A stretch of DNA of 64,000 nt from Bacteroidia bacterium (GTDB lineage: Bacteria > Bacteroidota > Bacteroidia > J057), in the NCBI GenBank assembly GCA_033391075.1, contig JAWPMV010000001.1, forward strand, positions 4,278,001-4,342,000. Reading direction: 5' to 3'. The position numbers and the translations under genes are program-made. Below are positions 29,932 to 47,273 of this stretch, piece after piece. The notes under the pieces are model-generated. The model was not told the DNA's origin and made no database searches. It saw only the letters and a program-made list of their open reading frames with translations. The stretch's first letter is position 1, and each line of letters starts with the position of its first letter.

Positions 29932-32201
29932 AAAAACTACTGCTATCCCTCAGTCTCTGCTTATTCCTCTTCCCAACACTTCAAGCCCAGGAAAGTGATC
30001 CGGCTTTATTGACCCTGGACCGCATTTTCCTTAATGGCGAATTCATCCAAAGCGGTATTGGACAAATCCAATGGTACAAAGGAGGAGAAGCCTACACACA
30101 AGTAGTGGCTTCAACCGAAATAAGAGGCGCGCAGGATATCATCAAATACAATACCCAAAGCGGTGATTCAGAAACCTGGATTTCAGCCAAAGACCTCATT
30201 CCCTCCGGGAGCGACCGTCCTTTGCAAATAGCCGCATATAAAGGACTGGCCAATGAGTCTCAGGTGATGATCTTCACCAACACCCGTAGAGTATGGCGAA
30301 CCAATACCCGGGGAGATTACTGGGTATTTAATAGAGAAAGTAAAGAACTCCGGAAGCTGGGAGGAGACTTGCCCGGCTCTTCGCTCATGTTCAGCAAATT
30401 TGCCCCGGATGGGAAAAGTGTGGCTTATGTAAGTGGCAATAACCTTTACCTCGAATCCTGGGAAAATAAAGAAGTCCAAGCCCTTACGGAAGATGGTTCG
30501 CGTAACATTATCAATGGGACTTTCGATTGGGTATATGAGGAAGAGTTTTTCTGCCAGGATGGATTTAGATGGAGCCCTGATTCGCGTAAAATAGCTTATT
30601 GGCAATTGGATGCAGCTGGAACGGGCATTTTCTATATGATCAACAATACCGATTCTGTTTACTCCAGACCGATTCCTATAGAATATCCGAAAGTAGGAGA
30701 TAAACCCTCTGGAGCACGTATAGGCATTCTGGATGTTCAAACGAAAAAGACACTTTGGCTAAATATACCCGGAGCAGAACGGGACAATTACTTACCCAGG
30801 CTTCAATGGATTGGGGATAAAGTTCTGGTTCAACAGCTAAACCGCAAACAAAATCACCTCAAACTATGGATTTGTGATGCCGAAAGTGGGGAGGCGAAAC
30901 TGGTATATGAAGAAAAGGACAAAGCATGGGTAGATATTTTCCATATGGATGCCAGCAGCCCCAGAGGCATGAGGGATTATCAGGTAGTAGATGAGGGAAA
31001 AGCCGTTTTACGGCTTGCAGATAAAGATAGCTGGAGACATCTCTATAAAATAGCTTTAGATGGCTCTGGAGCAAAGGACATGAGCCCTGCCGCTTATGAT
31101 TTGGCAAGAACCTATGATCTTTCGAGCGATGCATCTGCGATTTACACCATCGCATCTCCTGACAATCCCACCCAAAGGTATTTATACCAACTATCTCTGA
31201 AAGGAAAAGCTAAAAGCAAAAGACTGACCCCCGAGGAGTATTCCGGTATTAACCAATATAATATTTCCCCTAATGGAGCATACGCCATCCATACCCACTC
31301 CAATGCCAATACTCCCAATAGCTACCGCTTGATCAGCCTTCCTGACCATAAAAGTGTTCGCAGCTTACAGGACAATTCGGCATATAAAGAAAAATTGGCG
31401 GGCCTGGATCTTCCGACCTATGAATTCTTTACGGTAGAGACTGAAGATGGAGTGGTCATGGAAGGGAAAATGATGAAACCCAGCGTCTTTAATCCCCAAA
31501 AGAAATATCCCGTACTTTTCAATCTGTATGGAGAACCTGCCGGGCAAACGGCAGTGGACAGATGGGATGGCAATCTCTGGCATGCAATGCTGGCTCAACA
31601 AGGCTATATCGTCCTGACCCTAGACAATAGAGGCACTCCCAGTCTGAAAGGACGGGAATGGAGAAAAAGTATATACAGAAAGATCGGAATTCTAAATTCA
31701 CATGATCAGGCAATGGCTGCCAAAAAGATAGCAGAATGGCCCTTCGTCGATAAAGATCGCATGGCCGTATGGGGCTGGAGCGGAGGAGGCACCATGACCC
31801 TCAATCTACTTTTTCGTTATCCCGGACTCTTTAGTACCGGCATGTCGGTAGCTCCGGTTGCCAATCAGCTCCTTTATGACAATATCTACCAGGAACGCTA
31901 TATGGGACTGCCTCAGGAAAACATGGAAGATTTTGTTGAAGGCTCTCCTCTGACATATGCAAAAAATCTTGAAGATAATCTTTTGCTTGTTCATGGAACC
32001 GGTGATGACAATGTGCACTACCAGAATAGCGAGGTGCTAATCAATGAATTGATCAAGCACAATAAGCAATTTCAGGTTATGCCTTACCCCAATCGCTCAC
32101 ATGGCATTTACGAGGGCCCAAATACCCGTAGGCATTTATATACCTTATTGACCCAATACCTGCTTAGAAATTGTCCTCCAAATGCAGAAGAGGATCGATA
32201 A
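29928..32201 (+). CDS. Dipeptidyl-peptidase IV-type S9 serine peptidase
   Basis: 757 residues with a signal peptide (1-20). The N-terminal beta-propeller carries 'DWVYEEEFF', the double-Glu motif that anchors the substrate N-terminus in DPP-IV. The alpha/beta hydrolase domain has Ser618 in 'WGWSGGGTM', Asp693 in 'GTGDDNVHYQ' and His725 in 'RSHGIYEG', a full catalytic triad. It would release Xaa-Pro (or Xaa-Ala) dipeptides in the periplasm or at the surface. The usual GWSYGG is GWSGGG here. Its ATG overlaps the ribD stop by four bases. Confidence 0.92.
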   Translation: MKKLLLSLSLCLFLFPTLQAQESDPALLTLDRIFLNGEFIQSGIGQIQWYKGGEAYTQVVASTEIRGAQDIIKYNTQSGDSETWISAKDLIPSGSDRPLQIAAYKGLANESQVMIFTNTRRVWRTNTRGDYWVFNRESKELRKLGGDLPGSSLMFSKFAPDGKSVAYVSGNNLYLESWENKEVQALTEDGSRNIINGTFDWVYEEEFFCQDGFRWSPDSRKIAYWQLDAAGTGIFYMINNTDSVYSRPIPIEYPKVGDKPSGARIGILDVQTKKTLWLNIPGAERDNYLPRLQWIGDKVLVQQLNRKQNHLKLWICDAESGEAKLVYEEKDKAWVDIFHMDASSPRGMRDYQVVDEGKAVLRLADKDSWRHLYKIALDGSGAKDMSPAAYDLARTYDLSSDASAIYTIASPDNPTQRYLYQLSLKGKAKSKRLTPEEYSGINQYNISPNGAYAIHTHSNANTPNSYRLISLPDHKSVRSLQDNSAYKEKLAGLDLPTYEFFTVETEDGVVMEGKMMKPSVFNPQKKYPVLFNLYGEPAGQTAVDRWDGNLWHAMLAQQGYIVLTLDNRGTPSLKGREWRKSIYRKIGILNSHDQAMAAKKIAEWPFVDKDRMAVWGWSGGGTMTLNLLFRYPGLFSTGMSVAPVANQLLYDNIYQERYMGLPQENMEDFVEGSPLTYAKNLEDNLLLVHGTGDDNVHYQNSEVLINELIKHNKQFQVMPYPNRSHGIYEGPNTRRHLYTLLTQYLLRNCPPNAEEDR

Positions 32202-32343: not shown

Positions 32344-35091
32344 ATGCGCCGAAAACTACTATCAGTACTGCTAGTTATACTACTCAGTCCGCTACTCAGC
32401 CTGGCCCAACAATCAGGCTCACAACTACTGGATATGCCTATATCTGCCAGCTTTGCAAACCAAAGCCTGATGGATATTTTCACTGAATTGGAAAAGGAAT
32501 ACGAAGTCCGCTTTTTCTACAAAGAAGAATGGATTCCTCGTCAAGGCATTTCCATGATTATCAATAATCAAAGCCTTCGTCAGGTATTGAGACAATTGCT
32601 GGAAGCCAGAGGACTGGCTTTTTCTCAGTATGGAGAAAAAGCAGTGATCATTGGCAGGAGAACTGACCTTCAAATCCTGGAGGAATTTTCCTATGAGCAA
32701 TACCTGGATGATATCGATGGCAAAAAGAAGAAAGCGATCACTTCTGGTTTTGTGGAAATTCTGGGAGATTCTACCATACGCCCTTTGCCACAAACGGCCA
32801 GCATAGAAGGGGTGATATATGATGAGGAAACCGAAACTGTTTTAGCCGGAGCCCAAATTGCTTTTCCCCAATTGGAGATAGGGGCTATTTCTGATGAAAA
32901 GGGAGAATTTTCTATGGACATGCCTACCGGTAAATACGTAGCAGAAATTGAGGCTCCTGGTCATGAAAAACTCATTATAGATGTATGGGTGTATTCGGAT
33001 GGAGAATGGGAAATCCCGCTTTACTATACCGCATACCAATTGACAGAAGTACTCCTTGAAGCAGAATCTGTGGGGCAAAGCAAAGACAGCCCGGAAGCCG
33101 GAAAAGTAAATATATCGATCGTAGATATTCGTAAGCGACCCGCTTTATTAGGAGAAGTTGATATAGTAAATACGGTCTTGCTCTTGCCGGGCGTAAGTTC
33201 TGTTGGAGAAGCATCTACGGGTTTCAATGTAAGAGGAGGGAATGTAGACCAAAACCTCCTGATGCTTGGAGGAAATCCCATTTTTAACTCCTCTCACTTA
33301 TTTGGACTCTTCTCTGTCTTCAATCCCGATATCGTACAGAGCGCCACTTTGTATAAGGGCCATATTCCCGCACAATTTGGCGGTCGGATTTCTTCGGTGC
33401 TGGATGTAAAGGTGATGGAAGGAAGCTACCGGAAATTGAGAGGTCGGGGAAATGTTGGATTACTTTCCAGTAAACTCATGGTCAATGGCCCGATCAAGAA
33501 GGGAGAAAGCTCTTTTGTGCTGGGAGTACGGGGAGCCTATCCGGATTTATTTACGGGATATGTAGAGCAAATTCCGGATGTATTTCAAAGTAGTACTTAC
33601 TACTGGGATGTTTCGGGCAAGGCTACACAGAAATTCGGAGAAAATGGCAAACTTTCCCTTTTTGCTTATGGAAGTAAAGATGCTTTTTCATTTGCCGAAG
33701 GATTTGGATTTAGTTGGGACAATTTTGTATCCAGCCTGACCTGGAACCAGATATATAGTAGCCAGCTATCTTCAGAGGTTTCCGCTAAAACCAGCCACTA
33801 CCTCAGTCGCTTTAGCAATGAAAATGGAAAAGATGGTTCGATCAATAGTACCGGGATTGACAACCATAGCTTCAAGGCCAATCTCCAATACGTACCCAAC
33901 TACAGCCACAACTTCAATTTCGGGATGGAAATGAATTTCTATGACATCCTGGATAATAAACAGGAACCTTTAGGGCCAAACTCCATTTTGGAAGCCAATT
34001 CTTTCCCCAAAGATCAGGGCCTTGAATTCGCCCTCTATGCAAATGACAATTTTGACCTCAATGACTTTGTTCGTTTTTCCGCGGGTTTAAGATTTAGCCG
34101 ATATACCGCTTATGGGCCTTATGATGTAAATGTATATGCGGAAGGAAAAGATCGCACCATAGGCAATCGAACCGGGACGATCAGTTATGGCAAGGGAGAA
34201 GGCATACGCAGTTTCAATAATCTGGAGCCTCGTATTTCTCTTAGGGTCAGATTTGATGAGACGGCTTCTATTAAAGCCAGCTATAATCGGGTCAATCAGT
34301 ATTTACACCTGGTTTCCAATACAGCCTCTGCCACACCTATAGATATTTGGCAAACCAGCAATACCCATATACCTGCCCAAAGAGGGGATAATTATTCTCT
34401 GGGATTCTTCAAGGATTTCGGGGCAAAGGAGTGGGAAACCTCTCTGGAATTCTTTTATCGTGATATGAGCGGTTTGGTTGTAACCAAGAATTTCGGCCAA
34501 CTCCTCGGCAATCCCAATATTGAAACAGAAGTACTCAATGCCACCGGCTATGCATACGGAGGAGAATTTAGCATAAATAGAAGTTTCGGAGACCTGGATC
34601 TGGAATTTTCCTTCACCTATGCACGTACCCTCAGACGCACCGAAGACAATCCAGAAGGAATCGGAATCAACGATAATACATATTTCCCTGCGGATTTTGA
34701 TTCACCGATCAATATCAACCTGAATGCAAAGTGGCAACAAAGAAGTACACGTACCTTTGGGCTGAACTTCCTCTTCAGGACCGGACGTCCGGTGAGTGTT
34801 CCGGCTGGAGTAATCCCTGTTTTCCCGGGCATATTGCTTCCGGATTTCACAGAAAGAAACAGCTTCCGTATCCCGGATTATCATAGATTGGATCTCTCTT
34901 ATACCTTTGACGATGGATTGATCAATAAAAGTAAAGTCAAAAGTGATCTGACTTTTTCAGTCTATAATATTTATTCGCGAAGAAATCCCTTCTCTGTTTT
35001 TTTCCGAGAGCAAAACAACCGACTCCGAACCTTCACCCTTTCTGTCCTGGGTACCGCGATTCCTTTTGTTAGTTATAATGTGAGATTCTAA
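32344..35091 (+). CDS. TonB-dependent receptor with STN and carboxypeptidase-regulatory domains (copy 1)
   Basis: 915 residues. Signal peptide (1-21) is followed by an STN domain (about 30-105: ISASFANQSLMDIFTELEKEY, then VRFFYKEEW). A carboxypeptidase-regulatory-like beta sandwich spans about 155-245 (IEGVIYDEETETVLAGAQI). The plug domain is about 265-380 (VDIVNTVLLLPGVSSVGEA, GFNVRGGNVDQNLLML, LYKGHIPAQFGGRISSVLDV). A 22-strand-type barrel runs to the end (SYTFDDGL, FSVYNIYSRRNPFSVFFRE, FVSYNVRF). It imports a nutrient across the outer membrane using TonB energy; substrate unknown. It is followed 11 bases later by the MG2/plug-like gene and has a close paralogue at 37143. Confidence 0.92.
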   Translation: MRRKLLSVLLVILLSPLLSLAQQSGSQLLDMPISASFANQSLMDIFTELEKEYEVRFFYKEEWIPRQGISMIINNQSLRQVLRQLLEARGLAFSQYGEKAVIIGRRTDLQILEEFSYEQYLDDIDGKKKKAITSGFVEILGDSTIRPLPQTASIEGVIYDEETETVLAGAQIAFPQLEIGAISDEKGEFSMDMPTGKYVAEIEAPGHEKLIIDVWVYSDGEWEIPLYYTAYQLTEVLLEAESVGQSKDSPEAGKVNISIVDIRKRPALLGEVDIVNTVLLLPGVSSVGEASTGFNVRGGNVDQNLLMLGGNPIFNSSHLFGLFSVFNPDIVQSATLYKGHIPAQFGGRISSVLDVKVMEGSYRKLRGRGNVGLLSSKLMVNGPIKKGESSFVLGVRGAYPDLFTGYVEQIPDVFQSSTYYWDVSGKATQKFGENGKLSLFAYGSKDAFSFAEGFGFSWDNFVSSLTWNQIYSSQLSSEVSAKTSHYLSRFSNENGKDGSINSTGIDNHSFKANLQYVPNYSHNFNFGMEMNFYDILDNKQEPLGPNSILEANSFPKDQGLEFALYANDNFDLNDFVRFSAGLRFSRYTAYGPYDVNVYAEGKDRTIGNRTGTISYGKGEGIRSFNNLEPRISLRVRFDETASIKASYNRVNQYLHLVSNTASATPIDIWQTSNTHIPAQRGDNYSLGFFKDFGAKEWETSLEFFYRDMSGLVVTKNFGQLLGNPNIETEVLNATGYAYGGEFSINRSFGDLDLEFSFTYARTLRRTEDNPEGIGINDNTYFPADFDSPININLNAKWQQRSTRTFGLNFLFRTGRPVSVPAGVIPVFPGILLPDFTERNSFRIPDYHRLDLSYTFDDGLINKSKVKSDLTFSVYNIYSRRNPFSVFFREQNNRLRTFTLSVLGTAIPFVSYNVRF

Positions 35092-35102
35092 TTCAGCTTC
35101 TG

Positions 35103-36812
35103 ATGCAAAAGATATATTCCACTTTCCTTCTAACTCTCCTCTTTCTGCTGAAAGGGATCTTCCTTTCTGCCCAACTTCCTCAGGCAGAATACATGAAGAT
35201 TCACTTTGACAAGAGTTTCTATATCGCCGGAGAAGATGTTTGGTTCTCCCTTCATTTTCTTTCGCCCGAAAATCGCAAAAGTGAAGTCGTTTATGCGGAA
35301 TTGTTCTCTCCGGAAGGTGAGCAATTGATCCGCCATACCCTGAAAGTAGAAAACGAGCAAGTTTCAGGAGACTTCATTTTACCGGCAAATCTGGCAGAAG
35401 GATACTATACCATGAGGGCTTATACCCGCTGGAACCTCAACTACGATCCCCCGATCATGTTGGAGGCTCAAATTCCTGTGTACAATGCGGTCAGAGAAAT
35501 AAGTAGTTTACCGAAACTGGAAGAAGGAAATTATGCCCTGAATAGTTCAGATGAACTGAGCATCAATCTTGAGAAAAATATCTATAAGCCCCGGGAAGAG
35601 GTTAAACTGAATATCAGTGGGAAGCATGATAAACTGATTCATGTCTCTGTTTCTGTAACAGATTTGAGTTATGAAGAAGATTTGATCCATGAAGACCTGG
35701 CCAGCAACACCTCCGAAGGCAGATTTAAAACAGAGGAGGAAAAGCTGGAAGCAGAGTTCAAATTGAAAAAGGTATTTCGCCTACGCCATCCAGATACGCG
35801 AGAGCCGGTCAATTCCAATTTCATCATGGGATTTGTGAAACTCAATCACCAGAAATTGATACGTACGGCCGAAAATGGATATGTAGATTTTCCTCTGGAC
35901 AATTTTTACGATAGCACGGTTATCCAAATTTTTGATGCCAGCCCCTTTCAGGATACTTATATCCCCTTAATTGAGACGGTAAAGGATTCTTTTGAGCTTC
36001 CCCCTCCGAGTCTAAACCAAGATACCCCTCCCTTGACAGAGGCAGTCAAACATTATATCCTCAAATATCAGCATCGCTTCCAGGTGAGTAAGCTCTTTGG
36101 CAACATGGATTTGATCCGGGCACGTGCTCAACAAGTGGTCCCCTCTCAATTCAAGCCCACCAATGTTTATCGCACCAATGATTTCATTGATCTTGAGAGT
36201 ATGTCGGAATTTTTCAAGCAAGCCATTCCGCCCGTCACCTATAAAGCAGGGAAAGTAAAAGGAGACAAAATCATCAAAGCGCGTTTGAAGCTTTATGTTC
36301 CTCATAAAGAACCTATCTATAATAAACGGATCATCAAGAAGCCAGCTGTAATGCTGGTAAATGATTATTTCACCTATGATACAGAGGCCATTCTAAATAT
36401 TCCTCTTAGCAATGTTGAGCAGGTAGAGATATACAATACGGTCGTTGAACTACCTACTCAATTTGGGCCAATTGGAGATTTTGGAGCCATCGCTGTGATT
36501 ACCCGTGATGGAACTACGCCTCCTGAGATTGCAGAAACCGGCAACAACATCAAGATTTCAGGTTTCTATAGTCCTCGTCAATTAAAGACCATTGATTACG
36601 GAAGCATTGATCACAGGCTAAGCAAAATTCCGGATTTCCGACCTCTGATCTATTGGAATCCACAAGTCCCTCTTTCTCCCACTGAAAGCTCCAGCCTGAG
36701 TTTTCCTGCCGGAGATCAGCATGGTTCTTATCTGATTCGGGTGAAAGGAATTACCGCAAGTGGGGAGTTTGTGACAAGCGAGTCAGTGTTTAAGATTAGC
36801 TACCTTCCTTAG
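35103..36812 (+). CDS. MG2-domain protein with barrel-less TonB plug-like domain (copy 1)
   Basis: 569 residues with a signal peptide (about 1-24). Residues about 30-130 match a macroglobulin MG2-type domain ('FDKSFYIAGEDVWFSLHFL', then 'LAEGYYTMRAYTRWNLN'). The middle is a further beta-sandwich region (about 150-330). Residues about 400-475 look like a TonB-receptor plug ('VMLVNDYFTYDTEAILNIPL', 'NVEQVEIYNT', 'FGPIGDFGAIAVITRDG'), but no beta-barrel follows. It is the partner of the receptor just upstream and has a paralogue at 45468. The architecture suggests a secreted accessory that docks on or mimics receptor plugs; this is inference. Confidence 0.75.
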   Translation: MQKIYSTFLLTLLFLLKGIFLSAQLPQAEYMKIHFDKSFYIAGEDVWFSLHFLSPENRKSEVVYAELFSPEGEQLIRHTLKVENEQVSGDFILPANLAEGYYTMRAYTRWNLNYDPPIMLEAQIPVYNAVREISSLPKLEEGNYALNSSDELSINLEKNIYKPREEVKLNISGKHDKLIHVSVSVTDLSYEEDLIHEDLASNTSEGRFKTEEEKLEAEFKLKKVFRLRHPDTREPVNSNFIMGFVKLNHQKLIRTAENGYVDFPLDNFYDSTVIQIFDASPFQDTYIPLIETVKDSFELPPPSLNQDTPPLTEAVKHYILKYQHRFQVSKLFGNMDLIRARAQQVVPSQFKPTNVYRTNDFIDLESMSEFFKQAIPPVTYKAGKVKGDKIIKARLKLYVPHKEPIYNKRIIKKPAVMLVNDYFTYDTEAILNIPLSNVEQVEIYNTVVELPTQFGPIGDFGAIAVITRDGTTPPEIAETGNNIKISGFYSPRQLKTIDYGSIDHRLSKIPDFRPLIYWNPQVPLSPTESSSLSFPAGDQHGSYLIRVKGITASGEFVTSESVFKISYLP

Positions 36813-37064
36813 GGAGACAGAAAATTCTTATTGCTGCCCACCCTTGTGGATTTTATCCGTTATAGAGTTAGGGTAAACTAACGCTTACCTGTAAATGAAT
36901 GAGAAACCCCTGGATTCTGCCTAATGGAAGCTGCTATCACTACCTTTTCCTCTCTTTTTGTCAGTCTATACGCGCTCACATTTTTACCTCTGATGTCAAG
37001 GCTGGGAATGAATAGGGTTAAAACGCTGTCCAATAGCGAGTTTGCCAGATATACCTATGTAAAA

Positions 37065-37083
37065 AATTAGATATTTTCTAATT
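37065..37083. promoter_or_regulatory. Perfect dyad AATTAGA-N5-TCTAATT before the second TonB receptor
   Basis: A 7-base perfect inverted repeat with 5-base spacer lies 60-78 bases before the ATG at 37143, just upstream of a -7-like box. Its position suits a repressor or activator operator. The first receptor gene lacks an equivalent in its 5' gap. Confidence 0.45.
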
Positions 37084-37095
37084 GGGAGTTTTTTG

Positions 37096-37103
37096 TATTT
37101 TCG
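37096..37103 (+). promoter_or_regulatory. -7-like box (TATTTTCG) before the second TonB receptor
   Basis: TATTTTCG differs from TAnnTTTG at one position and lies 40 bases before the start codon. A -33 box is not clear. Confidence 0.3.
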
Positions 37104-37142
37104 CCAATTGGAATTACATCTGGTTATCAAATACCCTATCGA

Positions 37143-39896
37143 ATGCAACGAATACTTCTACTGTTATTCTTTTTTCTTACAGTTCTCTTTGCCACTCCTA
37201 TTTCGGCCCAAGGTCAGGACGAGGCCTTGCTGAATACCAAGATTACTGCCAGTTTTTCCGGACAAAATTTATTGCAGGTCTTTTATGACCTCGAGCAACG
37301 CTATCCGGTTCAATTTTTCTATAAGGAAGAATGGATCCCCAGAACAGGGATAAATTCCAATTTCAGTGCCGAGCCTTTAGGTTCTGTTTTGGCGAAACTT
37401 ATGGATGAGGCAGGTTTGGAATATGTTCAATTCGGACCCAATGCCCTTATAGTGGGTCGGATGTCTGATATTGCGACGCTTGAGTCCTTCTCTTATGCTG
37501 ATTATCTCACAGATGTAGATGCTGTAAATAATCAGGAGAAAAGCATCATTAACAAGCTGAGCATAGTTGGAGACTCTACCCTTCGTCCTTTACCTACCAG
37601 TGCCAAAATCTCCGGAACTATTTATGATGTAGAGAGTGAAGATGTTCTTCCTGGTGCGCAGATTATTTTTCCGGATTTAAAGAAACAGGCTTTTGCTGAT
37701 TCTGAAGGAAATTTTGAAATCGATATTCCTACAGGAAAGCATGAAGTAAGTATCGAAGCTCCGGGGCATGAGAAAGTAACCACTTTCCTACAGGCTTATT
37801 CGGATGCTGATTGGGACGTTCCCCTTTACTACACAGCTTATCAATTGAATGAAGTATTGCTTCAGGCCGAATCAGCTGGACAAAATAAAACCTCTGCAGA
37901 AGCAGGGCGGGTAAATATCTCTATTGTTGATATCAAAAAACGTCCCGCTCTCTTAGGTGAAGTCGACATTGTAAATACCGTACTCCTACTCCCTGGAGTT
38001 AGTACCGTAGGTGAGTCAGCCTCCGGTTTCAATGTGCGGGGAGGAAATGTAGACCAAAACCTGATCATGCAGGCGGGCAATATCATTTTCAACTCTTCTC
38101 ACCTTTTTGGATTCTTCTCGGTATTCAATCCGGATGTAGTACAAAATGTGAGTTTATATAAAGGACATATTCCTGCTCAGTTTGGAGGTCGTGTTTCCTC
38201 TGTACTGGATGTAGAAGTAAAAGACGGTAGTTTCCGTACTGTAAAAGGAACAGGAAGTGTTGGCCTTTTCTCGAGTAAATTCTCCCTCAACGGTCCAATA
38301 GTAAAAGAACAAAGTTCATTTGTGATCGCCCTTCGTGGTGCATACCCAAATGTTCTTACCGGTTATATAGATAATGTTCCTGAAGTTTCTCAAAGTAGTT
38401 CTTACTATGGAGACGCAACCATAAAACTCACCCAGAAATTGGGAGACAATGGTAAAATTGCCCTCTTTGGATATGGGAGTAAAGACTTCTTCCGTTTCTC
38501 TGAAGACTTTGGTTTTAGCTGGGAAAATTATGCATCAAGTTTGACCTGGACCCAGATTTACAACAGCCAGCTTTCTTCCAAAATAGAAGCCAAGGCCGGT
38601 AGATATTTCAGTAATTTCTTTAATGCCACTGGTGTAGAAGGAACGACCAATGATGCTGGAGTGAATAATTATGGTTTCCGCGCCAATGTTCAGTATGTTC
38701 CCAATCGCAAGCACAATTTCAACTTTGGAGTGGAAGGGAACTACTATGACATCCTGGACAATGAAACTCGTCCTTTTGGGGACAATTCAGTAGTTATCCC
38801 TCGTACCGCTCCGAAAGACCAGGGACTGGAATTGGGACTTTATGTAAATGACGATTTTGATCTCAACGATTTTATCCGCTTCTCTGCAGGTCTTCGCTTC
38901 TCCAGTTTTGCGAATGTAGGGCCTTACGATGTCAGTATCTACGAAGAAAACAGAATCAGAACGGATGATACGCGCATCAATACAATCAGTTATGGCAGTG
39001 GAGAGCAAATCGAAACCTTTGCCAACATAGAGCCTCGTATTTCTCTACGAATTCGTTTCGACGAAACCAGCTCCATGAAAGCAAGTTACAACCGCGTAAA
39101 TCAATATCTCCACCTGATATCCAATACTGCTTCTACCACGCCTATCGATATCTGGCAGGTAAGTAATAATTATTTCCCCGCCCAAAGAGCTGACAACTAC
39201 TCTCTGGGATTCTTTAAAGATTTCGGAGTAAAGACCTGGAAGACCTCTCTTGAATTCTTCTACAGAGATATGTCAGGCCTGGTAGTAACCAAGGACTTCG
39301 CCAGCTTGTTGGGTAATTCTTCTATAGAAACAGAAGTACTCAATGCAGTAGGATATGCTTACGGTAGTGAATTTAGCATAAACAGAAGCTTTGGAAACCT
39401 GGACCTGGAACTTTCTTTCACCTATGCAAGAACCTTTAGAAAGGCAGACGGCAATCCTGAAGGGGTAACGGTAAATAATGGAGAGTTCTTCCCCGCTGAC
39501 TTTGATAGTCCTATCAATATCAATTTCAGTGCAAAGTGGCAGCAGCGTTCTACTCGTACCTTCGGTATCAACTTCCTCTTCAGATCAGGAAGACCCGTAA
39601 GTGCACCTGAAGGAGTATTCCCACTCTATCCTTCATTGCTTGTGCCGACTTTCACCGAAAGAAATACCCTGAGAATTCCTGACTATCATCGTCTGGACTT
39701 CTCATATACCTTTGATGATGGGCTGGTAAACAAAAGGAAGTTCAAGACAGACCTGACATTCAGTGTTTATAATGCATATGGAAGAAAAAATCCTTTCTCT
39801 GTTTTCTTCAGGAGAGAAGGACTTGAGTATCGTGCATTTACACTATCAGTTCTGGGAACCATCCTTCCCTTTGTTAGTTACAATTTCCGATTTTAA
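37143..39896 (+). CDS. TonB-dependent receptor with STN and carboxypeptidase-regulatory domains (copy 2)
   Basis: 917 residues, collinear with copy 1 over its entire length. Signal peptide (1-22), STN domain (ITASFSGQNLLQVFYDLEQRY, VQFFYKEEWIPRTG), carboxypeptidase-regulatory domain (ISGTIYDVESEDVLPGAQI), plug (NTVLLLPGVSTVGESASGFN, LYKGHIPAQFGGRVSSVLDV), and barrel ending in FVSYNFRF. Differences from copy 1 are scattered. Its codons use more GGT, CGT and GTT than copy 1, which may reflect higher expression (qualitative reading). Five DUF4249 lipoprotein genes follow directly (gap 17 bases), then an MG2/plug protein. Substrate unknown. Confidence 0.92.
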   Translation: MQRILLLLFFFLTVLFATPISAQGQDEALLNTKITASFSGQNLLQVFYDLEQRYPVQFFYKEEWIPRTGINSNFSAEPLGSVLAKLMDEAGLEYVQFGPNALIVGRMSDIATLESFSYADYLTDVDAVNNQEKSIINKLSIVGDSTLRPLPTSAKISGTIYDVESEDVLPGAQIIFPDLKKQAFADSEGNFEIDIPTGKHEVSIEAPGHEKVTTFLQAYSDADWDVPLYYTAYQLNEVLLQAESAGQNKTSAEAGRVNISIVDIKKRPALLGEVDIVNTVLLLPGVSTVGESASGFNVRGGNVDQNLIMQAGNIIFNSSHLFGFFSVFNPDVVQNVSLYKGHIPAQFGGRVSSVLDVEVKDGSFRTVKGTGSVGLFSSKFSLNGPIVKEQSSFVIALRGAYPNVLTGYIDNVPEVSQSSSYYGDATIKLTQKLGDNGKIALFGYGSKDFFRFSEDFGFSWENYASSLTWTQIYNSQLSSKIEAKAGRYFSNFFNATGVEGTTNDAGVNNYGFRANVQYVPNRKHNFNFGVEGNYYDILDNETRPFGDNSVVIPRTAPKDQGLELGLYVNDDFDLNDFIRFSAGLRFSSFANVGPYDVSIYEENRIRTDDTRINTISYGSGEQIETFANIEPRISLRIRFDETSSMKASYNRVNQYLHLISNTASTTPIDIWQVSNNYFPAQRADNYSLGFFKDFGVKTWKTSLEFFYRDMSGLVVTKDFASLLGNSSIETEVLNAVGYAYGSEFSINRSFGNLDLELSFTYARTFRKADGNPEGVTVNNGEFFPADFDSPININFSAKWQQRSTRTFGINFLFRSGRPVSAPEGVFPLYPSLLVPTFTERNTLRIPDYHRLDFSYTFDDGLVNKRKFKTDLTFSVYNAYGRKNPFSVFFRREGLEYRAFTLSVLGTILPFVSYNFRF

Positions 39897-39913
39897 TCTA
39901 AGCGCTTTTTCCT

Positions 39914-41002
39914 ATGAAAAGGATAAGAATAATCGGCAAACTTTTACTGAGTCTCCTATTGGCTTTCCAGCTTTCTTGTGTTTCTCAGTTGGAAAATCCG
40001 CTGGAACTCGAGCCACAACTGGTTATCAGTGGACAGTTCAGTAACAGTCCGGGCGCTCGGGTGATTCGCGTACTTTCTGTAGAAGGCCTGGATGGTAAAG
40101 GTACCCAGCTTGAAGCCACAGGTTCCATCTATAAAGATGGACAAGTATTTGCCGATTTGGTGGTAAATGCAGAGGGTGATTTAGCACTTCCCACAAATTT
40201 TGTCGTGGAAGAAGGCTCAGAATATTTTGCAGAAGTAGTTACCAATGGCAATAATGTATACCGCTCAGCACCTCAGATTGTACAACCTAAATATGAGACC
40301 CAAAGTATTTCTTTTGAAGTTGAGGAAGACATTGAAAGTTCTCGCTTTCTGGGCCTCACGGTAAACAGATCTCGCATCGAATTTTTTGCCCATGTAGATC
40401 TTCCCGATCCACAAGTAGAGAAAAGATATTACAGATGGGTGGTTGATGAAGCCTGGAATTATATAGAATCTAATCAGGATGATACTTGCTATTTGGCGAA
40501 TACCATTTTTGATAATACTTCTTCTTTGGTAACCAATGCCAGCGGTCTGCTGCAGACCGGCGAAGCGCGTGTTTCCATTCTGGACAGAAGACTCGATAAT
40601 ACCTTCGCTCACACCCATTTCGTCAATGTTTACCTACATTCCCTCGATGCCCGGACCTTTGAGTTTTATGAGAAGTCAGCACGTCTGACCAGTGGGACAG
40701 GTACCATCTATGATGAAGTACCCGGGCCCTTCAGAGGAAATTTGGCAAATGTGGCTGATCCGGAAGAAGTCGTTCTGGGTTGGGTAGAATTTTTTCTGGC
40801 AGATACCCTTCGCTATCAATTGCGAAGAGATGGGATAAATAGTACAGTTCCTACACAATGTGATGATATACCTGGAGGTGGGCCTTGTCCCCCTCAGATA
40901 CCACCACCTGGCGGAGGTCTTCCTCCTCCTTGTCAATGCAATGCATGTGCAGCGGTTTTGGGTCAGGATGCATTAAGTCCTCCTGAATATTGGATAGATT
41001 AA
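39914..41002 (+). CDS. DUF4249 lipoprotein 1 of 5
   Basis: 362 residues. Lipoprotein signal ends LLAFQLSC, followed by VSQLENPLELEPQ. DUF4249 marks: 'LVISGQFSNSPGARVIRV', 'GSIYKDGQVFADL', 'KRYYRWVVDEAW', 'FVNVYLHSLDARTFEFYEK' and 'EVPGPFRGNLANV...VLGWVEFFLADTLR'. The C-terminus carries a Pro/Gly-rich linker and a Cys cluster (CPPQIPPPGGGLPPPCQCNAC) and ends PPEYWID at the stop. DUF4249 proteins sit next to TonB receptors in Bacteroidota, probably on the outer membrane surface; function unknown. Closest relative in the window is copy 4. Confidence 0.88.
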   Translation: MKRIRIIGKLLLSLLLAFQLSCVSQLENPLELEPQLVISGQFSNSPGARVIRVLSVEGLDGKGTQLEATGSIYKDGQVFADLVVNAEGDLALPTNFVVEEGSEYFAEVVTNGNNVYRSAPQIVQPKYETQSISFEVEEDIESSRFLGLTVNRSRIEFFAHVDLPDPQVEKRYYRWVVDEAWNYIESNQDDTCYLANTIFDNTSSLVTNASGLLQTGEARVSILDRRLDNTFAHTHFVNVYLHSLDARTFEFYEKSARLTSGTGTIYDEVPGPFRGNLANVADPEEVVLGWVEFFLADTLRYQLRRDGINSTVPTQCDDIPGGGPCPPQIPPPGGGLPPPCQCNACAAVLGQDALSPPEYWID

Positions 41003-41025
41003 CTCAGTTTTTAACGCTTTTATAG

Positions 41026-42105
41026 ATGTTCAACTTCCAGTCGATACACAGAGGAATATTTGCAGGCATTTGTGCGTGCCTCCTCATTCTATCTGCCTGT
41101 GTCCAGGAGTTGACAAATACCCAGGCTCTACAAGAAACCCTTGTAATAAGTGGACAATTAAGTAATAGCCCCAAATTCAGGGACATCAAAGTTCTCAGGG
41201 TAAATAACCGACTGGGTACCGGAGATTCTCTGGATGCAGTTGTGAGTTTGTATAAGGACGGACAATTTCTGACTGATTTAAATAAGGTTGCCCCCGGAAC
41301 TTATAGACTCCCATTAAATCTTGAGATAGAAGCCGGATTTAGCTATTACACAGAAATCCAACTTGAGGGAAATTTATATCGAAGTCTCGAGCAAAAAGTT
41401 ACTACTACCGCAGATACAGATAGTATTAGCTTTCGTATCCTGACCGAAGATGAGTATACCCAGGAAAGAGGATTCGCAGAACCTGTTGTCCTGAAGGGCA
41501 TAGAATTCTCCGCACATCTGGATCTTCCCGAACTTACAGATGGGGAGGTTTTTTATAGATGGGTAGTAAATGAAGTCTATAGCTTTGTAGAATCAAATAA
41601 AACAGATACTTGCTACATCCGGGAAGCGATTGAAGAAAATACCTTTAGTCTGGTATCCAATACAGACCCGGACATTAGCTTTGGGAAAGTTAAAGTTCCT
41701 ATCCATTTACAGGGACTGGACAAATCTTTTGCATACAAGCACTATATCAATGCCTACTTACACAGCATTGACAGGAGCACTTATGAATATTATTCAAAGG
41801 TAAAGGACCTGACGAGCATTGATGGAACCATTTATGACCAAATTCCTGGTCCTATCGATGGCAATATCAGGAACCAGGACAATCCAGATCTACATCCTGC
41901 GGGTTTTGTGGAGTTTTTTCTGGCCGATACCTTTTACTATGGACTAAACAGATCGAATATACCCTCTAATGTACCTGAACAATGCTGGGATATCCCGGGA
42001 GGAGGACCTTGTCCCCCAGACCCCACGGTTCCCTGTAAATGTCTGGCCTGTGAGGCAATATGTGGAGAAGAGGCATTGACTCCCCCGGATTACTGGGTGG
42101 ATTAA
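41026..42105 (+). CDS. DUF4249 lipoprotein 2 of 5
   Basis: 359 residues. Lipobox LSAC, then VQELTNTQALQ. Conserved DUF4249 segments include 'LVISGQLSNSPKFRDIKV', 'VSLYKDGQFLTDL', 'VFYRWVVNEVYSF', 'YINAYLHSIDRSTYEYYSK' and 'IPGPIDGNIRNQ...AGFVEFFLADTFYYGL'. The C-terminal Cys cluster is shorter than in copy 1 (CKCLACEAICGEEAL) and ends PPDYWVD. A 23-base gap from copy 1 shows tight operon packing. Divergent enough from copy 1 (much less than half identical by eye in the middle) that the duplication is old. Confidence 0.87.
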   Translation: MFNFQSIHRGIFAGICACLLILSACVQELTNTQALQETLVISGQLSNSPKFRDIKVLRVNNRLGTGDSLDAVVSLYKDGQFLTDLNKVAPGTYRLPLNLEIEAGFSYYTEIQLEGNLYRSLEQKVTTTADTDSISFRILTEDEYTQERGFAEPVVLKGIEFSAHLDLPELTDGEVFYRWVVNEVYSFVESNKTDTCYIREAIEENTFSLVSNTDPDISFGKVKVPIHLQGLDKSFAYKHYINAYLHSIDRSTYEYYSKVKDLTSIDGTIYDQIPGPIDGNIRNQDNPDLHPAGFVEFFLADTFYYGLNRSNIPSNVPEQCWDIPGGGPCPPDPTVPCKCLACEAICGEEALTPPDYWVD

Positions 42106-42133
42106 AGAGCACATACCTTGAATAACAATTGAT

Positions 42134-43186
42134 ATGAATAGGCTAACTCACATATCAAAGATTTTATTTTCCGCCCTGATCCTGCTTGGATTGGGACTGT
42201 TTTCCTGTATAGAAGAATTGGAAAACCAGGTCCCGGTTTCTGGCCAACTGGTGGTTAGTGGTCAGTTTAGCAATAGTGATTCTTTGCGGCAGATAAGCAT
42301 ACAAAGAATAAATAGCATTACAGGTAGTGGGGCAGCCCTTAGCGCAAGTGGTCGTATCTACCGGGACGGAACAGATCCTATCGAATTGGTCGAAGTTGAG
42401 ACGGGAATATTGCGAGCTCCACAGACCTATGTTTTCGAAGAAGGCAGAGAGTATTTCGTAGAAATTAATTTAGAGAATCAGGTTTATCGGTCCAAAGCTC
42501 AGCTTGTCCAACCGCTTCTCCATACAGATTCCATCAGTTTTGAGGTAAGGGAAGAAAGAAATGATGATAGGAGGCCTGGAGAACCCATCCTCTTCCGTAA
42601 AATCGAATTTTCGGCTTATGTAGACTTGCCTGATGTAAATGAAAGACAGGCATATTACAGATGGGTAGTTGATGAGGCCTGGTTATTTATTGGTCTGGGA
42701 GTTGGCAGTATTTGCTATGTTCAGGAAAATATTGCTAACAATCCGTATCAGGTCATCAGCAATACCGTTCCAGGAGCTAAAGTTGGTTTGGTCGGAGTGC
42801 CTGTACTGGACCATGATCTCGATTTTAGTTTTGAACATCAGCATTATATCAATGTTTATTTACATAGTGTAGATGCAGCAACTTTTGATTATTACGAAAA
42901 GAATCAACGTCTGATTGGTATAGATGGGACCATCTATGATGAGATACCAGGAGAAATCGAGAGTAATATCCTGAATGTCGACAGACCAGATGAAAAAGTC
43001 AGGGGCTGGGTGGAGTTCTTCCTCGCAGATACCTTGAGATTGAAAGTTTTGGGGAGTCAAATTCCTGCCCCGGTACCCCAGCAATGCAATGTACCACCTG
43101 GAGCTACGCCTCCAAATCGGTGCTTGAGTTGTCCAGGTACATATGGAATAACTTCAATAGAAAAACCTTTTTATTGGGAAGATTGA
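42134..43186 (+). CDS. DUF4249 lipoprotein 3 of 5
   Basis: 350 residues. Lipobox FSC, then IEELENQVPVS. DUF4249 segments: 'LVVSGQFSNSDSLRQISI', 'GRIYRDGTDPIEL', 'AYYRWVVDEAWLF', 'YINVYLHSVDAATFDYYEK' and 'IPGEIESNILNV...VRGWVEFFLADTLR'. The C-terminal Cys region is reduced (CNVPPGATPPNRCLSCPG) and the tail ends KPFYWED. It is the shortest member and lacks the long PPPGGG linker. Same operon. Confidence 0.87.
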   Translation: MNRLTHISKILFSALILLGLGLFSCIEELENQVPVSGQLVVSGQFSNSDSLRQISIQRINSITGSGAALSASGRIYRDGTDPIELVEVETGILRAPQTYVFEEGREYFVEINLENQVYRSKAQLVQPLLHTDSISFEVREERNDDRRPGEPILFRKIEFSAYVDLPDVNERQAYYRWVVDEAWLFIGLGVGSICYVQENIANNPYQVISNTVPGAKVGLVGVPVLDHDLDFSFEHQHYINVYLHSVDAATFDYYEKNQRLIGIDGTIYDEIPGEIESNILNVDRPDEKVRGWVEFFLADTLRLKVLGSQIPAPVPQQCNVPPGATPPNRCLSCPGTYGITSIEKPFYWED

Positions 43187-43196
43187 ATAAGAAAAT

Positions 43197-44300
43197 ATGA
43201 TAGATCGATATATGAACAGAGTTTTACTGATACTGGGAGTATCCCTCTTAGGATTGAGTGCATGTGTAACTCAATTGGATAATCCCCTTGAGCTGCAACC
43301 TCAGCTCGTGATCAATGGAGTATTCAACAATAGTGCCGGCCAAAGGCAGGTAAGTGTCCGTCTGGTTGATGACCTGGATGGTAATGGACAGATTCTGGAT
43401 GCTAGCGGTTCCATTTATAAAGATGGGCAGCTATCTGCAGACCTGATAAACAATCCGAATGGAGAGCTCGAACTTCCAGCAGGATATGTCATTGAAGCAG
43501 GGTCCGAATACTACATTGAATTGATTACAAATGGGAACAAAGTCTATCGTTCAATCCCTCAGGTAGTAGCTCCTAAATACGAAACGGAAACTATCAGTTG
43601 GGAAGTTGTCGAAGATGTAGACAGACCCTTTTTCAGAGGGGATCCGATTGTTAGATCTACCATCGAATTTTTTGCACATGTCGATTTGCCTGATGCAGAT
43701 GCAGACAAACGCTATTACAGATGGGTTGTAGATGAAAGTTGGGATTTTCACGAATCCCCCATTTCGGATACCATCTGTTATCTTACCAAATCCGTATCGG
43801 ATTATAGTGCCTCTCTCCTCACTAATGCCAGCAATTTGCTTCAGGTAGGTCAGGCCAGAAAATCAGTGGCCATACGCGATTTTGATAATTCTTTTGCAGA
43901 AACTCATTACTTTAATGTATACCTCCACTCGCTCGATGCCAGAACATATGAATTTTATGCAAAATCTGAGCGTCTGACAAGTGGAACAGGTACCATATAT
44001 GATGAAGTACCCGGACCATTTAGGGGAAATATCTCCAATGTAGATGATCCGGAAGAAGTTGTACTGGGATGGGTTGAGTTCTTCTTGGCGGATACACTCA
44101 GGGCTCGTCTTTCTGGAGACGACTTCAGGGCACAAAACTTCTTTGTATCCACGCAGTGTAACCAAACCGGAGCACCCGGCCCTTGTCCTCCGCAGATTAC
44201 CCCTCCCGGAGGAGGTCTTCCCCCTCCTTGTCAGTGTCTGGATTGCCAGAATGTATTGGGAGAGGATGCACTCAATCCTCCTTTTTATTGGGAAGATTAA
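43197..44300 (+). CDS. DUF4249 lipoprotein 4 of 5
   Basis: 367 residues from the ATG at 43197; an ATG at 43212 (MNRVLLI) is an equal candidate. Lipobox LSAC, then VTQLDNPLELQPQ. Segments 'LVINGVFNNSAGQRQVSV', 'GSIYKDGQLSADL', 'KRYYRWVVDESWDF', 'FNVYLHSLDARTYEFYAK' and 'EVPGPFRGNISNV...VLGWVEFFLADTLRA' are very close to copy 1, as is the C-terminal CPPQITPPGGGLPPPCQCLDC and the end PPFYWED. At the DNA level the 43975-44105 stretch is highly similar to 40675-40805. It most likely arose from copy 1 by a recent duplication or gene conversion. Confidence 0.88.
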   Translation: MIDRYMNRVLLILGVSLLGLSACVTQLDNPLELQPQLVINGVFNNSAGQRQVSVRLVDDLDGNGQILDASGSIYKDGQLSADLINNPNGELELPAGYVIEAGSEYYIELITNGNKVYRSIPQVVAPKYETETISWEVVEDVDRPFFRGDPIVRSTIEFFAHVDLPDADADKRYYRWVVDESWDFHESPISDTICYLTKSVSDYSASLLTNASNLLQVGQARKSVAIRDFDNSFAETHYFNVYLHSLDARTYEFYAKSERLTSGTGTIYDEVPGPFRGNISNVDDPEEVVLGWVEFFLADTLRARLSGDDFRAQNFFVSTQCNQTGAPGPCPPQITPPGGGLPPPCQCLDCQNVLGEDALNPPFYWED

Positions 44301-44350
44301 CAGTAAGTGATAATTGACTTTGGCTTTTTGCATATGAAAAAATAAGTCTG

Positions 44351-45448
44351 ATGACATCCTTTCGACTACATATCCTCAATTATCTCCTCATGGGCCTTTT
44401 ATTGGCAGCCTGTGTGGAACCGCTCGAATTCGAGCTAGATTCGGAGGTAGAATATGTTTTGATCGATGGAGTTGTCAGCAATAGTCCAGATGAGCGGACA
44501 ATCACAGTTTCCAGAGGTAGAGGATTTGACCAAAAGGAATTTCAGCCTATCAATGCGAGGGGGAATATTTATCGAGATGGTCAGTTATGGGATATCCTGG
44601 CAGTACAGGGGGTTGGTAAACTCTATGTTCCCTTTACCTTGAAACTGGAGGAAGGCAGAAGCTATGAAATAGAAATAACTACTTCAAATGGAGATGTCTT
44701 TCGTTCCCAGCCACAACTCGTACAGCCTAAACGGGAGATGGATTCTCTTTCTTTCGGGGTAGAAAGAAGATTGGCGGGTACAACTTTCAGTGGTTTACCC
44801 AGATTTGAGCAGTTTGTCGATGTCTTTGCACATGTAAGAACACCTGGCCCTTCTGAAGATCGTTATTATCGTTGGCAGGTAGATGGTACATTTTCTTTCG
44901 TAGAATCTGCCCAGCCACAAAATCCTAACAATATTCCAAGTACCTGCTACCTGAGTCATTTCATCTCGGAAAACCCCACAACTGTCCTGAGTTCTCAGGG
45001 CTTGGCAGAAGGGGATATAAAAAAACTTGTCAATAGCCGGATTGCTGACGAAAGTTTCCTGTTCAGGCATGTAGTGAATGTATATATGCATTCTATTGAC
45101 AAATCTACTTATGAGTACTATGATCGGGCCATCAGGCTTACGCAAAGTGCAGGTACACTTTTCGACGAAGTTCCTGCACCGGTCCAGGGCAATGTCAAGA
45201 AGACTGTCGGAGAACCAGAGATTGTGCTGGGACAGATCGACTTTTCCCTGGTAGATACCATGAGGATCAGCTTAAGCAAAGGCATCCTTAAAGTACCGGT
45301 CAGTAATGTATGTGATACACCTACCCCCTGCCCTACAAGGCCTCCTGCTCCGGGCGGGGTGATAGATCCTATATATTGTAAATGCTGGGATTGCGATCTC
45401 GCTTTACCCAATGCAAGTCTCTTCCCGCCTTTTTTCTGGGATGAGTAA
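44351..45448 (+). CDS. DUF4249 lipoprotein 5 of 5
   Basis: 365 residues. Lipobox LAAC, then VEPLEFELDSE. It is the most divergent copy: 'VLIDGVVSNSPDERTITV', 'GNIYRDGQLWDIL', 'RYYRWQVDGTFSF', 'VVNVYMHSIDKSTYEYYDR' and 'EVPAPVQGNVKK...VLGQIDFSLVDTMRI'. The C-terminal Cys cluster is present (CKCWDCDLALPNASL) and the tail ends PPFFWDE. It is followed after 19 bases by the MG2/plug gene, so the array and that gene form one operon. Confidence 0.87.
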   Translation: MTSFRLHILNYLLMGLLLAACVEPLEFELDSEVEYVLIDGVVSNSPDERTITVSRGRGFDQKEFQPINARGNIYRDGQLWDILAVQGVGKLYVPFTLKLEEGRSYEIEITTSNGDVFRSQPQLVQPKREMDSLSFGVERRLAGTTFSGLPRFEQFVDVFAHVRTPGPSEDRYYRWQVDGTFSFVESAQPQNPNNIPSTCYLSHFISENPTTVLSSQGLAEGDIKKLVNSRIADESFLFRHVVNVYMHSIDKSTYEYYDRAIRLTQSAGTLFDEVPAPVQGNVKKTVGEPEIVLGQIDFSLVDTMRISLSKGILKVPVSNVCDTPTPCPTRPPAPGGVIDPIYCKCWDCDLALPNASLFPPFFWDE

Positions 45449-45467
45449 GAAAAAGAAATAAAATCGA

Positions 45468-47201
45468 ATGAATACGAACATCTTAAGGTATTACCTACTA
45501 ACAATCGTTCTTCTGCTTGGCATTTCACTCCCGGCTCAGAACTACCTGAGTACACCGGAGTACCTCTATGCCCAGTTTGACAAAGAATTCTATGTTGCGG
45601 GAGAGGATATGTGGTTCTCAGTATACTTTGCCAATCCCGGTGCCCGTCAGAGCGAGATTGTCTATGCTGAACTTTATTCTCCTGATTCAAAAGAGATTTC
45701 CCGCCACATGCTAAAAGTAGAAGGGAATCGTGCCTATGGAGATTTTATTCTTCCGGCAAATGTTAAAACAGGTTATTATACTTTCCGGGCATATACCCGC
45801 TGGAACCTAAACTTTAGCCCTCAACAGGTATTTACCAAAGAAATTGCCATCTATAATGCAGAATCCAGTTCTGCCAAGATTGGGGATTTGTCTACACCAG
45901 ACTACAGTCCGGCAATTTCGGAGAACCTGCGGATAACTTTGGCAAAAAGCAGCGTAAAACCCAGAGAGAAGATCAGCATTAAACTCTCAGCGCTTGCGCA
46001 GGGTTCGGGCAATGCCTCTATTTCCATTACCGATCTTCGTTACCTGACTGATGAGAAAAAATCTGCCTTGAAGCAATATCTCGGGGAGATTAATTCCCAA
46101 ACTGCCCCCGCTCTCAGTAGTGGACAGCAGGTGATAGATCCTGAGAAGTCTCTGGAGAAAACCTTCATGCTGAGGCATCCTGATACAGAGGAATATGTGA
46201 ATTCCAACTTCGTGATGGGATTTGTGAAGCAGACTCAGCAAAAATTGATTCGGGTTGCGGAAAATGGAATTGTTGATTTTCCCCTGGATGCATTTTATGA
46301 CTCTACCGTAGTACAGATTTTTGATGCGAATCCCTTCCAGGCCAGTTATATCCCGCTCGTTGCACCGGTAAATAAGGAGCTTGCGATTACTCCTCCTCCT
46401 GCCAATAGCAAAACGCCTCCTATGACGGATGCAGTGAAATTCTATGTTCAGGAGTACCAAAAACGCTTTCAAATCGGCAAACTCTTTGGAAATCTGGATC
46501 TCATCAGAGCCAAACAAGTTGAACTGGCTGAGCGCCAATTTCGCCCAACTAATACTTATCTGGTAGATGATTTCATCAGCCTTCCCAATATGGAGGAATT
46601 TATCAGGCAGGCCGTACCTCCTGTAAATATCAAAGATTTTAAGATCAAGGGGACCAAAGTAAAGAAGCCTGGTTTTAGACTCTATATTCCTCACAAAGAA
46701 GTAAACACCAATAATAAGGTAGTTAAAAAGCGTCCTTTATTACTGGTAAATGATTACTTCACCTATGACTCAGATGCAGTCTTAGGTTTGGACTGGGCCA
46801 ATGTCGAGACCATAGAAGTATTCAATTCTGTTGATAATCTTCCTTTGCAGTTTGGGCCAATTGGTGAATTTGGTGTCATCGCCTTTAACACCCGCGATGG
46901 AAAAACCCCGGATAACATCACTGCTACAGGTAATAACCTGATGATCCCCGGATTTTATCGTCCTCGCCTGGTAAACAGCATGGATTATAGCAGTAGAACC
47001 TATCTAAATAGTAAGATTCCTGATTTCCGTCCTATGATTTATTGGAATCCTTTGGTATCTCTTGCGGGAGGCACTGAAACGGAATTACAATTCTCAGTAG
47101 GTGATCAAACAGGACTATACCTGATTCGGGTAGAAGGTTTTCTCGATAGTGGAGCCTATGTTTCAGGAGAAGCTATTTTGAACATCAGCCTTAACCGTTA
47201 A
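45468..47201 (+). CDS. MG2-domain protein with barrel-less TonB plug-like domain (copy 2)
   Basis: 577 residues, collinear with the copy at 35103. Signal peptide about 1-23, MG2-type domain (FDKEFYVAGEDMWFSVYFA, then VKTGYYTFRAYTRWNLN), conserved middle blocks ('RHPDTEEYVNSNFVMGFVKQ', 'DAFYDSTVVQIFDANPFQ'), and a plug-like segment ('LLLVNDYFTYDSDAVLGLDW', 'NVETIEVFNS', 'FGPIGEFGVIAFNTRDG'). No beta-barrel follows. Here it closes an operon after five DUF4249 genes, while its paralogue directly follows its receptor. The repeated pairing with a receptor implies a functional unit. Confidence 0.75.
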   Translation: MNTNILRYYLLTIVLLLGISLPAQNYLSTPEYLYAQFDKEFYVAGEDMWFSVYFANPGARQSEIVYAELYSPDSKEISRHMLKVEGNRAYGDFILPANVKTGYYTFRAYTRWNLNFSPQQVFTKEIAIYNAESSSAKIGDLSTPDYSPAISENLRITLAKSSVKPREKISIKLSALAQGSGNASISITDLRYLTDEKKSALKQYLGEINSQTAPALSSGQQVIDPEKSLEKTFMLRHPDTEEYVNSNFVMGFVKQTQQKLIRVAENGIVDFPLDAFYDSTVVQIFDANPFQASYIPLVAPVNKELAITPPPANSKTPPMTDAVKFYVQEYQKRFQIGKLFGNLDLIRAKQVELAERQFRPTNTYLVDDFISLPNMEEFIRQAVPPVNIKDFKIKGTKVKKPGFRLYIPHKEVNTNNKVVKKRPLLLVNDYFTYDSDAVLGLDWANVETIEVFNSVDNLPLQFGPIGEFGVIAFNTRDGKTPDNITATGNNLMIPGFYRPRLVNSMDYSSRTYLNSKIPDFRPMIYWNPLVSLAGGTETELQFSVGDQTGLYLIRVEGFLDSGAYVSGEAILNISLNR

Positions 47202-47211
47202 GGAGAGAGAT

Positions 47212-47248
47212 AAAAAAAGCCCCGACTTAGTAAGTCGGGGCTTTTTTT
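47212..47248. terminator. Bidirectional intrinsic terminator
   Basis: GCCCCGACTT (47219-47228) pairs perfectly with AAGTCGGGGC (47232-47241) around a 3-base loop, flanked by A7 on the left and T7 on the right. It serves both the receptor/DUF4249 operon and the convergent minus-strand gene. Confidence 0.95.
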
Positions 47249-47273
47249 ATGCTATTGATTTTCTGACTGTATA

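Follow-up and report, generated by a model that had tools for sequence, protein, structure and literature searches.

The locus described here is a real and conserved uptake cassette of Bacteroidota in an extreme form, in which five tandem genes for DUF4249 lipoproteins stand between the gene of a TonB receptor and that of an unexplored partner protein, designated MG2/plug. We denote the TonB receptor, the DUF4249 protein and the MG2/plug protein T, D and M, respectively, and U is an exported protein of about 245 amino acids seen in related cassettes. Units with zero, one, two, three, four, and five D genes beside the same kind of receptor constitute a natural experiment on whether the number of lipoproteins sets the ligand range, and part of it, zero and five, is found side by side in a single genome. 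DUF4249 itself is widespread in the phylum (98 of 148 sampled genomes) and has no assigned function.

Organization of the Locus

The window, i.e., the whole analysed stretch of 64,000 nucleotides, comes from a genome of 9.49 Mb. All nine ORFs of the locus were found on the plus strand, in the order proposed by the first-pass annotation, and Pfam matches and pairwise identities bear out their assignment. Unit A comprises receptor A (positions 32344–35091, 915 aa; by Pfam, an STN/FecR_C-like N-terminal domain, CarboxypepD_reg, plug, and TonB barrel) and, directly 3′ of it after 11 bp, MG2/plug A (35103–36812, 569 aa; Pfam); no DUF4249 gene follows receptor A, and no remnant of one was detected by tblastn. 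Unit B starts with receptor B (37143–39896, 917 aa; Pfam), a paralogue of receptor A by alignment, and after 17 bp continues immediately with the DUF4249 genes, namely, D1 (39914–41002, 362 aa, with a lipobox at Cys22 and a Cys-rich C-terminal tail ending in PPEYWID), D2 (41026–42105, 359 aa), D3 (42134–43186, 350 aa), D4 (43197–44300, 367 aa, 63% identical to D1), and D5 (44351–45448, 365 aa, most similar to the copies found in related genomes). It is completed by MG2/plug B (45468–47201, 577 aa; Pfam), with a macroglobulin-like fold in the AlphaFold model and a carboxypeptidase-like/plug-like module. The TonB barrel was matched by Pfam, and the five DUF4249 matches (PF14054, E 5e-14 to 3e-21) are all over the cut-off; the matches to MG2 lie slightly under the curated one.

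The strong terminator claimed at 47212 is indeed present as an intrinsic terminator with a 19-pair stem on the plus strand (47210–47250). The gaps, all of which had been described as small, are so within each unit (10–50 bp), but not between units A and B, where 330 bp (36813–37142) contain neither a gene nor a terminator and probably hold the promoter of unit B.

A dipeptidyl peptidase IV gene (29928–32201) lies 142 bp upstream of receptor A on the same strand, a possible hint at peptides. We dropped it as an indication of the cargo, as in the related genome G001 (L132) the ORFs that precede the receptor gene do not resemble it in size and start.

Conservation of the Gene Order and Number of Lipoproteins

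The alignment of five receptors run against the named genomes yielded 80 receptor loci, and in almost every one of them, L090 being an exception, D stands behind T, while M follows in many of these loci from other genomes. Rearrangements also occur: M is placed ahead of D in L057 (T-M-D-D) and L099 (T-M-D-D-D), and the order is T-D-M-D in L066 and in the first unit of L102. The DUF4249 search of the host genome gave 16 places, five of them inside the window, and the genome has twelve further T-D pairs (11 recovered via the DUF4249 list and one via the profile), all containing just one D. The order is T-D-M in three of these (L035, L036, and L037), whose genes overlap or almost touch. The trees of T and of M pair many loci in the same way. 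The T-D(n)-M order is old and conserved across Bacteroidota, with occasional rearrangement, and normally n = 1. The first-pass annotation had inferred a modular machine and considered that an order not kept in relatives would make the unit accidental; the module is conserved, its order having turned up in numerous other genomes and at three further places in the host genome. It is extremely improbable that the genes are accidental neighbours, given the order conserved across families and within the host genome, and this explanation was rejected by synteny. In one of the three T-D-M units of the host genome, the receptor has a gene with FG-GAP repeats as its immediate neighbour (L035:2422–3984).

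Counting n in relatives, as suggested in the annotation, gives mostly one and up to four. Among the STN-type loci with M from the receptor scan and the host genome, the window left out, n = 1 in 30, n = 2 in three, and n = 3 in two. Further loci, picked by searching 148 Bacteroidota genomes for DUF4249, contain four D genes in L145 and two in L146 and L148; in the related genome G004, n = 2 (L131). The five D genes of unit B are the largest number seen, and zero among M-bearing loci is seen only in unit A. As the copies within the D arrays are mostly mutual best matches, their similarity indicates that amplification is local and repeated, i.e., that the increase to two, three, and four copies elsewhere is independent and took place beside a single receptor. 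An exception is D5, which matches a copy from G004 best; it is therefore probably ancestral, with D1–D4 arising later. Separately, G153, which also has a four-copy array, contains two DUF4249 genes in tandem (L147:5720–8174) that lack a receptor within the 14 kb examined.

History of Units A and B

The receptors of the two units are 65% identical over 897 aa, and the MG2/plug proteins, 51% over 567 aa. On the tree of the receptors, A groups with B as its sister (support 100/100), and the T-D-D-M unit of G004 (L131) and the T-D-M unit of G001 (L132), whose branching order relative to each other is weakly supported, are placed just outside. Both outside units carry D, hence the ancestor most likely had it too, and by parsimony unit A most likely lost its lipoproteins or was copied without them. 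Of the two possibilities left open by the first-pass annotation, i.e., that one copy lost or never had the lipoproteins, loss in copy A is thus the most likely one.

Relative-rate tests show M of unit A evolving faster than that of unit B when either of the two closer outgroups is used (p 0.0008 and 0.006) and not with the third one, and receptor A evolving faster than receptor B with one of three outgroups. Since the difference is significant with some outgroups only, asymmetric evolution of copy A is suggested. The identity between the copies is 47% for the STN part of the receptors, 77% for the plug, and 68% for the barrel, and 51% for M, with 30% in its MG3-like part. The greater divergence of the STN part and M compared with the plug and barrel would be consistent with coupled change of STN and M.

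DUF4249 Lipoproteins

The lipobox cysteine is invariant in 83 aligned D proteins, including all five of the window, and in 72 of the 83 the next four residues include an acidic one, compared with 45% of the four-residue windows taken from the remainder of these proteins. Acidic residues after the lipobox cysteine are a mark of surface export in Bacteroidota, and the D proteins, having them as expected for such export, are likely exposed at the cell surface. The claim of an outer-membrane machine with surface lipoproteins agrees with this feature as far as D is concerned; for M, as discussed below, a role as a partner in the periplasm is likelier than a place at the surface.

The AlphaFold model of D5 (pLDDT 92) consists nearly entirely of beta strands, forming two beta-sandwich domains of the Ig/FnIII-like type. 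The fold search with DUF4249 produced generic Ig/FnIII matches only, with the best Z 7.6, and we refrained from naming the function of D on this ground; the sequence search of solved structures with DUF4249 found none. The C-terminal tail of D is rich in cysteines and has the form C-x2-C … P-x-[YF]-W. A strict pattern detects it in 31 of the 42 D proteins encoded at loci with STN and M, versus six of the 54 that accompany short receptors.

While D1 and D4 are 63% identical, the other D pairs of the window are 31–45% identical. This divergence (31–63% overall), together with the recurrent and local amplification, might be taken to mean that the five proteins vary for escape or dosage, being decoys for phages or other attackers or a simple rise in copy number, rather than ligand-specific proteins. 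However, all five retain common core and tail residues that a decoy would not need, and divergence this wide is more than simple dosage would suggest; we regard this explanation as quite unlikely. A role of the D proteins in ligand capture, including the combinatorial capture suggested by the first-pass annotation, may be proposed by analogy, their fold being generic.

MG2/Plug Protein and the STN Domain

The M protein has a signal of the SPI type and no lipobox, as read directly from the sequence. The MG2 domain of Pfam scores 32.6 bits in M of unit B and 28.8 bits in M of unit A against the curated cut-off of 32.8, and it is matched by 45 of 49 members of the M family at E 0.1 (the best, 2.5e-14), whereas the Pfam plug is matched by eight of the 49 (the best, 9e-10). 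In profile comparison, M can be aligned with the receptors at a probability of 89.6% and E 1.9e-6, the match covering the plug and carboxypeptidase-like regions. In the AlphaFold model of M of unit B (pLDDT 88.6), the only helix is that of the N-terminal signal peptide, and there is no transmembrane segment. The model matches the fold of alpha2-macroglobulins from animals and bacteria as well as that of complement C5/C3 (Z 17–18), for instance C5 (3cu7_B; 220 residues, 2.7 Å, Z 18.1) and oocyte alpha2-macroglobulin (7s62; 214 residues, 2.7 Å, Z 17.9); the clean alignments span about 208–220 residues at 2.6–2.8 Å and leave the rest of the 577 residues uncovered. The translation of M of unit B contains no cysteine, and thus the protein has no thioester. 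According to the model, M is a short macroglobulin-fold protein with a receptor-like module and no barrel. The description of M as a barrel-less plug protein is therefore correct as regards the plug-like and carboxypeptidase-like parts and the absence of a barrel, and too narrow as regards the macroglobulin fold. The sequence search of solved structures with M and the receptor returned nothing useful, and weak Tet4 matches to M look like chance.

If MG2/plug proteins occurred mostly without such receptors, the first-pass annotation would have the unit accidental; what we see is that a single branch of the tree sets the M proteins linked to receptors apart from the unlinked ones (one change versus the shuffled mean of 12.1, 0 of 500; support 77 on a quick tree), a split that may be sharpened by linked and unlinked members having come partly from different searches. 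The unlinked proteins of the separate branch include larger ones of 800–1100 aa (L047:7357–9861, L048:4158–7532, L138, and L141).

The receptors have two forms, a long one with the N-terminal STN-like domain and a short one without it. In receptor A of the locus, FecR_C (STN-like) exceeds the Pfam cut-off, with STN itself below it (E 8e-5), and in receptor B, where STN by itself is below the Pfam cut-off, the domain is assigned via the alignment with A (47% over residues 34–105). In the full set, with the position of the plug motif used as a proxy for length and loci cut by contig ends left out, M accompanies 35 of 42 long receptors and none of 50 short ones. When STN was scored on the alignment and near-duplicates were thinned, 43 loci had both STN and M, seven had STN only, and 29 had neither; the single apparent STN-less receptor with M (L079) begins at base 1 of its contig and so is cut. 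For this association, Fisher p is about 1e-15 when L079 is omitted from that cell and relatives are counted as if independent; independent pairs (two or three concordant, none discordant) show the right direction, but the association is then not significant, the events being too few. Two short lineages nested among receptors with STN and M, L038/L058 and L039/L056, have neither STN nor M, consistent with their joint loss.

Seven STN receptors have no M, and four of them (L044, L046, L049, and L050, all in the host genome) have a FecR gene directly upstream, mostly with sigma genes too; FecR adjoins none of the examined receptors with STN and M, and FecR/sigma profiles had no match among the ORFs of the window. 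Given this complementary distribution, M could replace FecR as a signalling partner, reporting the receptor occupancy from STN to a regulator, so that transport would require the receptor and lipoprotein only. Yet M has no transmembrane segment to pass the signal, and the cassettes contain no recurring regulator gene, and hence we find this role rather unlikely. Instead, from its co-occurrence with STN, we infer that M is a partner of this domain in the periplasm; the periplasmic position is more likely than the surface one because of the SPI-type signal without a lipobox and the co-occurrence with STN, which is periplasmic. What appears new here, as judged from gene content, is that M is found only with STN-bearing receptors and that the FecR/sigma genes which accompany other STN receptors are never next to it. 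This link offers a testable role both for STN, otherwise known from signalling, and for a nameless macroglobulin-fold protein.

Exported Protein Encoded Upstream of the Receptor

The U protein, which has no meaningful Pfam match, is encoded directly upstream of the receptor, often with an overlap, in 23 of 35 loci with STN and M, among others in L061, L065, L066, L068, L076, and L145. It is absent from the window, and one clear copy is present in the host genome beside the receptor of L037 (L037:3631–4368). In L144 (11244–14612), U and a receptor seemingly without STN are fused in one frame of 1122 aa, which suggests that U and the receptor act together.

This fusion, the receptor-type plug-like and carboxypeptidase-like parts of M, and the many surface parts to be assembled from one operon would also be expected if M, and U elsewhere, were assembly factors, with M serving as a stand-in plug or a chaperone in folding and export of the receptor and surface lipoproteins. 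However, receptor–DUF4249 pairs of the same kind are common without M or U, and thus neither is generally needed for assembly, and copy A retains M despite having no lipoproteins. We consider assembly an unlikely function.

Proposed Mechanism

Taking all this into account, the best overall explanation, to which we give about an even chance, is that unit B is an outer-membrane uptake operon with interchangeable D proteins, one receptor, and a periplasmic partner M. The five surface-anchored Ig/FnIII-like lipoproteins would be interchangeable capture or lid proteins for one receptor, each, by analogy, with its own ligand variant. Receptor B would move the ligand across the outer membrane, energised by TonB. 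The soluble periplasmic M protein with the alpha2-macroglobulin fold would dock on the STN domain of the receptor, where FecR sits in signalling receptors, and receive or gate the cargo. Unit A would be a tandem duplicate minus the lipoproteins, working without them or borrowing those of unit B.

More tentatively, and with less than an even chance, the cassette could be a trans-envelope machine not yet described, built of surface D proteins in variable number, an STN-bearing receptor, and a periplasmic M that has the macroglobulin fold and its own plug-like domain and would bind STN and take over the cargo (a peptide or protein), with U encoded upstream of the receptor in most lineages.

Comparison With Known Systems

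Alpha2-macroglobulins (those of Escherichia coli and Salmonella, and complement C3/C5) share the fold with M (Z 17–18), whose MG2 match in the locus lies slightly under the curated cut-off. They exceed 1,200 aa, compared with 577 aa in M of unit B, which has no cysteine and hence no thioester, is far too short for a thioester domain and bait region, and carries the carboxypeptidase-like/plug-like module.

The FecA-type STN receptors with FecR/ECF sigma have the N-terminal STN-like domain in common with the receptors described here, but FecR/sigma genes adjoin no receptor in the examined cassettes with MG2/plug. The SusCD systems, in turn, resemble unit B in combining a TonB-dependent receptor and a surface lipoprotein in a single operon. 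SusD is helical, in contrast to the DUF4249 model with its predominant beta strands. We rejected membership in this family, as the NCBIfam matches (E 0.01) include no SusC/RagA family and the partner is a beta-sandwich DUF4249 protein.

The pairing of a receptor with DUF4249 is already known: in Bacteroides thetaiotaomicron, according to the available part of the source, BT2172–BT2173 form a conserved operon of a TonB-dependent transporter and a DUF4249 protein, mutants of either being similar (PMC11003636). Unit B is likened to it by the gene arrangement, the receptor followed by DUF4249. As far as that part goes, it describes a single DUF4249 gene and does not mention an MG2/plug gene, whereas here n = 5 (unit B) or n = 0 (unit A), with MG2/plug added (PMC11003636). 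Among the open-access papers searched, we found none on the MG2/plug partner, on a macroglobulin domain combined with a TonB plug, or on arrays of multiple DUF4249 genes.

By analogy, a model for how unit B may work is provided by the XusAB system of xenosiderophore uptake, where, in the portion of the source available, the surface lipoprotein XusB binds the ligand and hands it over to the TonB-dependent transporter XusA (PMC13142918). That portion describes one lipoprotein per transporter and mentions no MG2/plug partner (PMC13142918), and XusB is likened to the D proteins by role.
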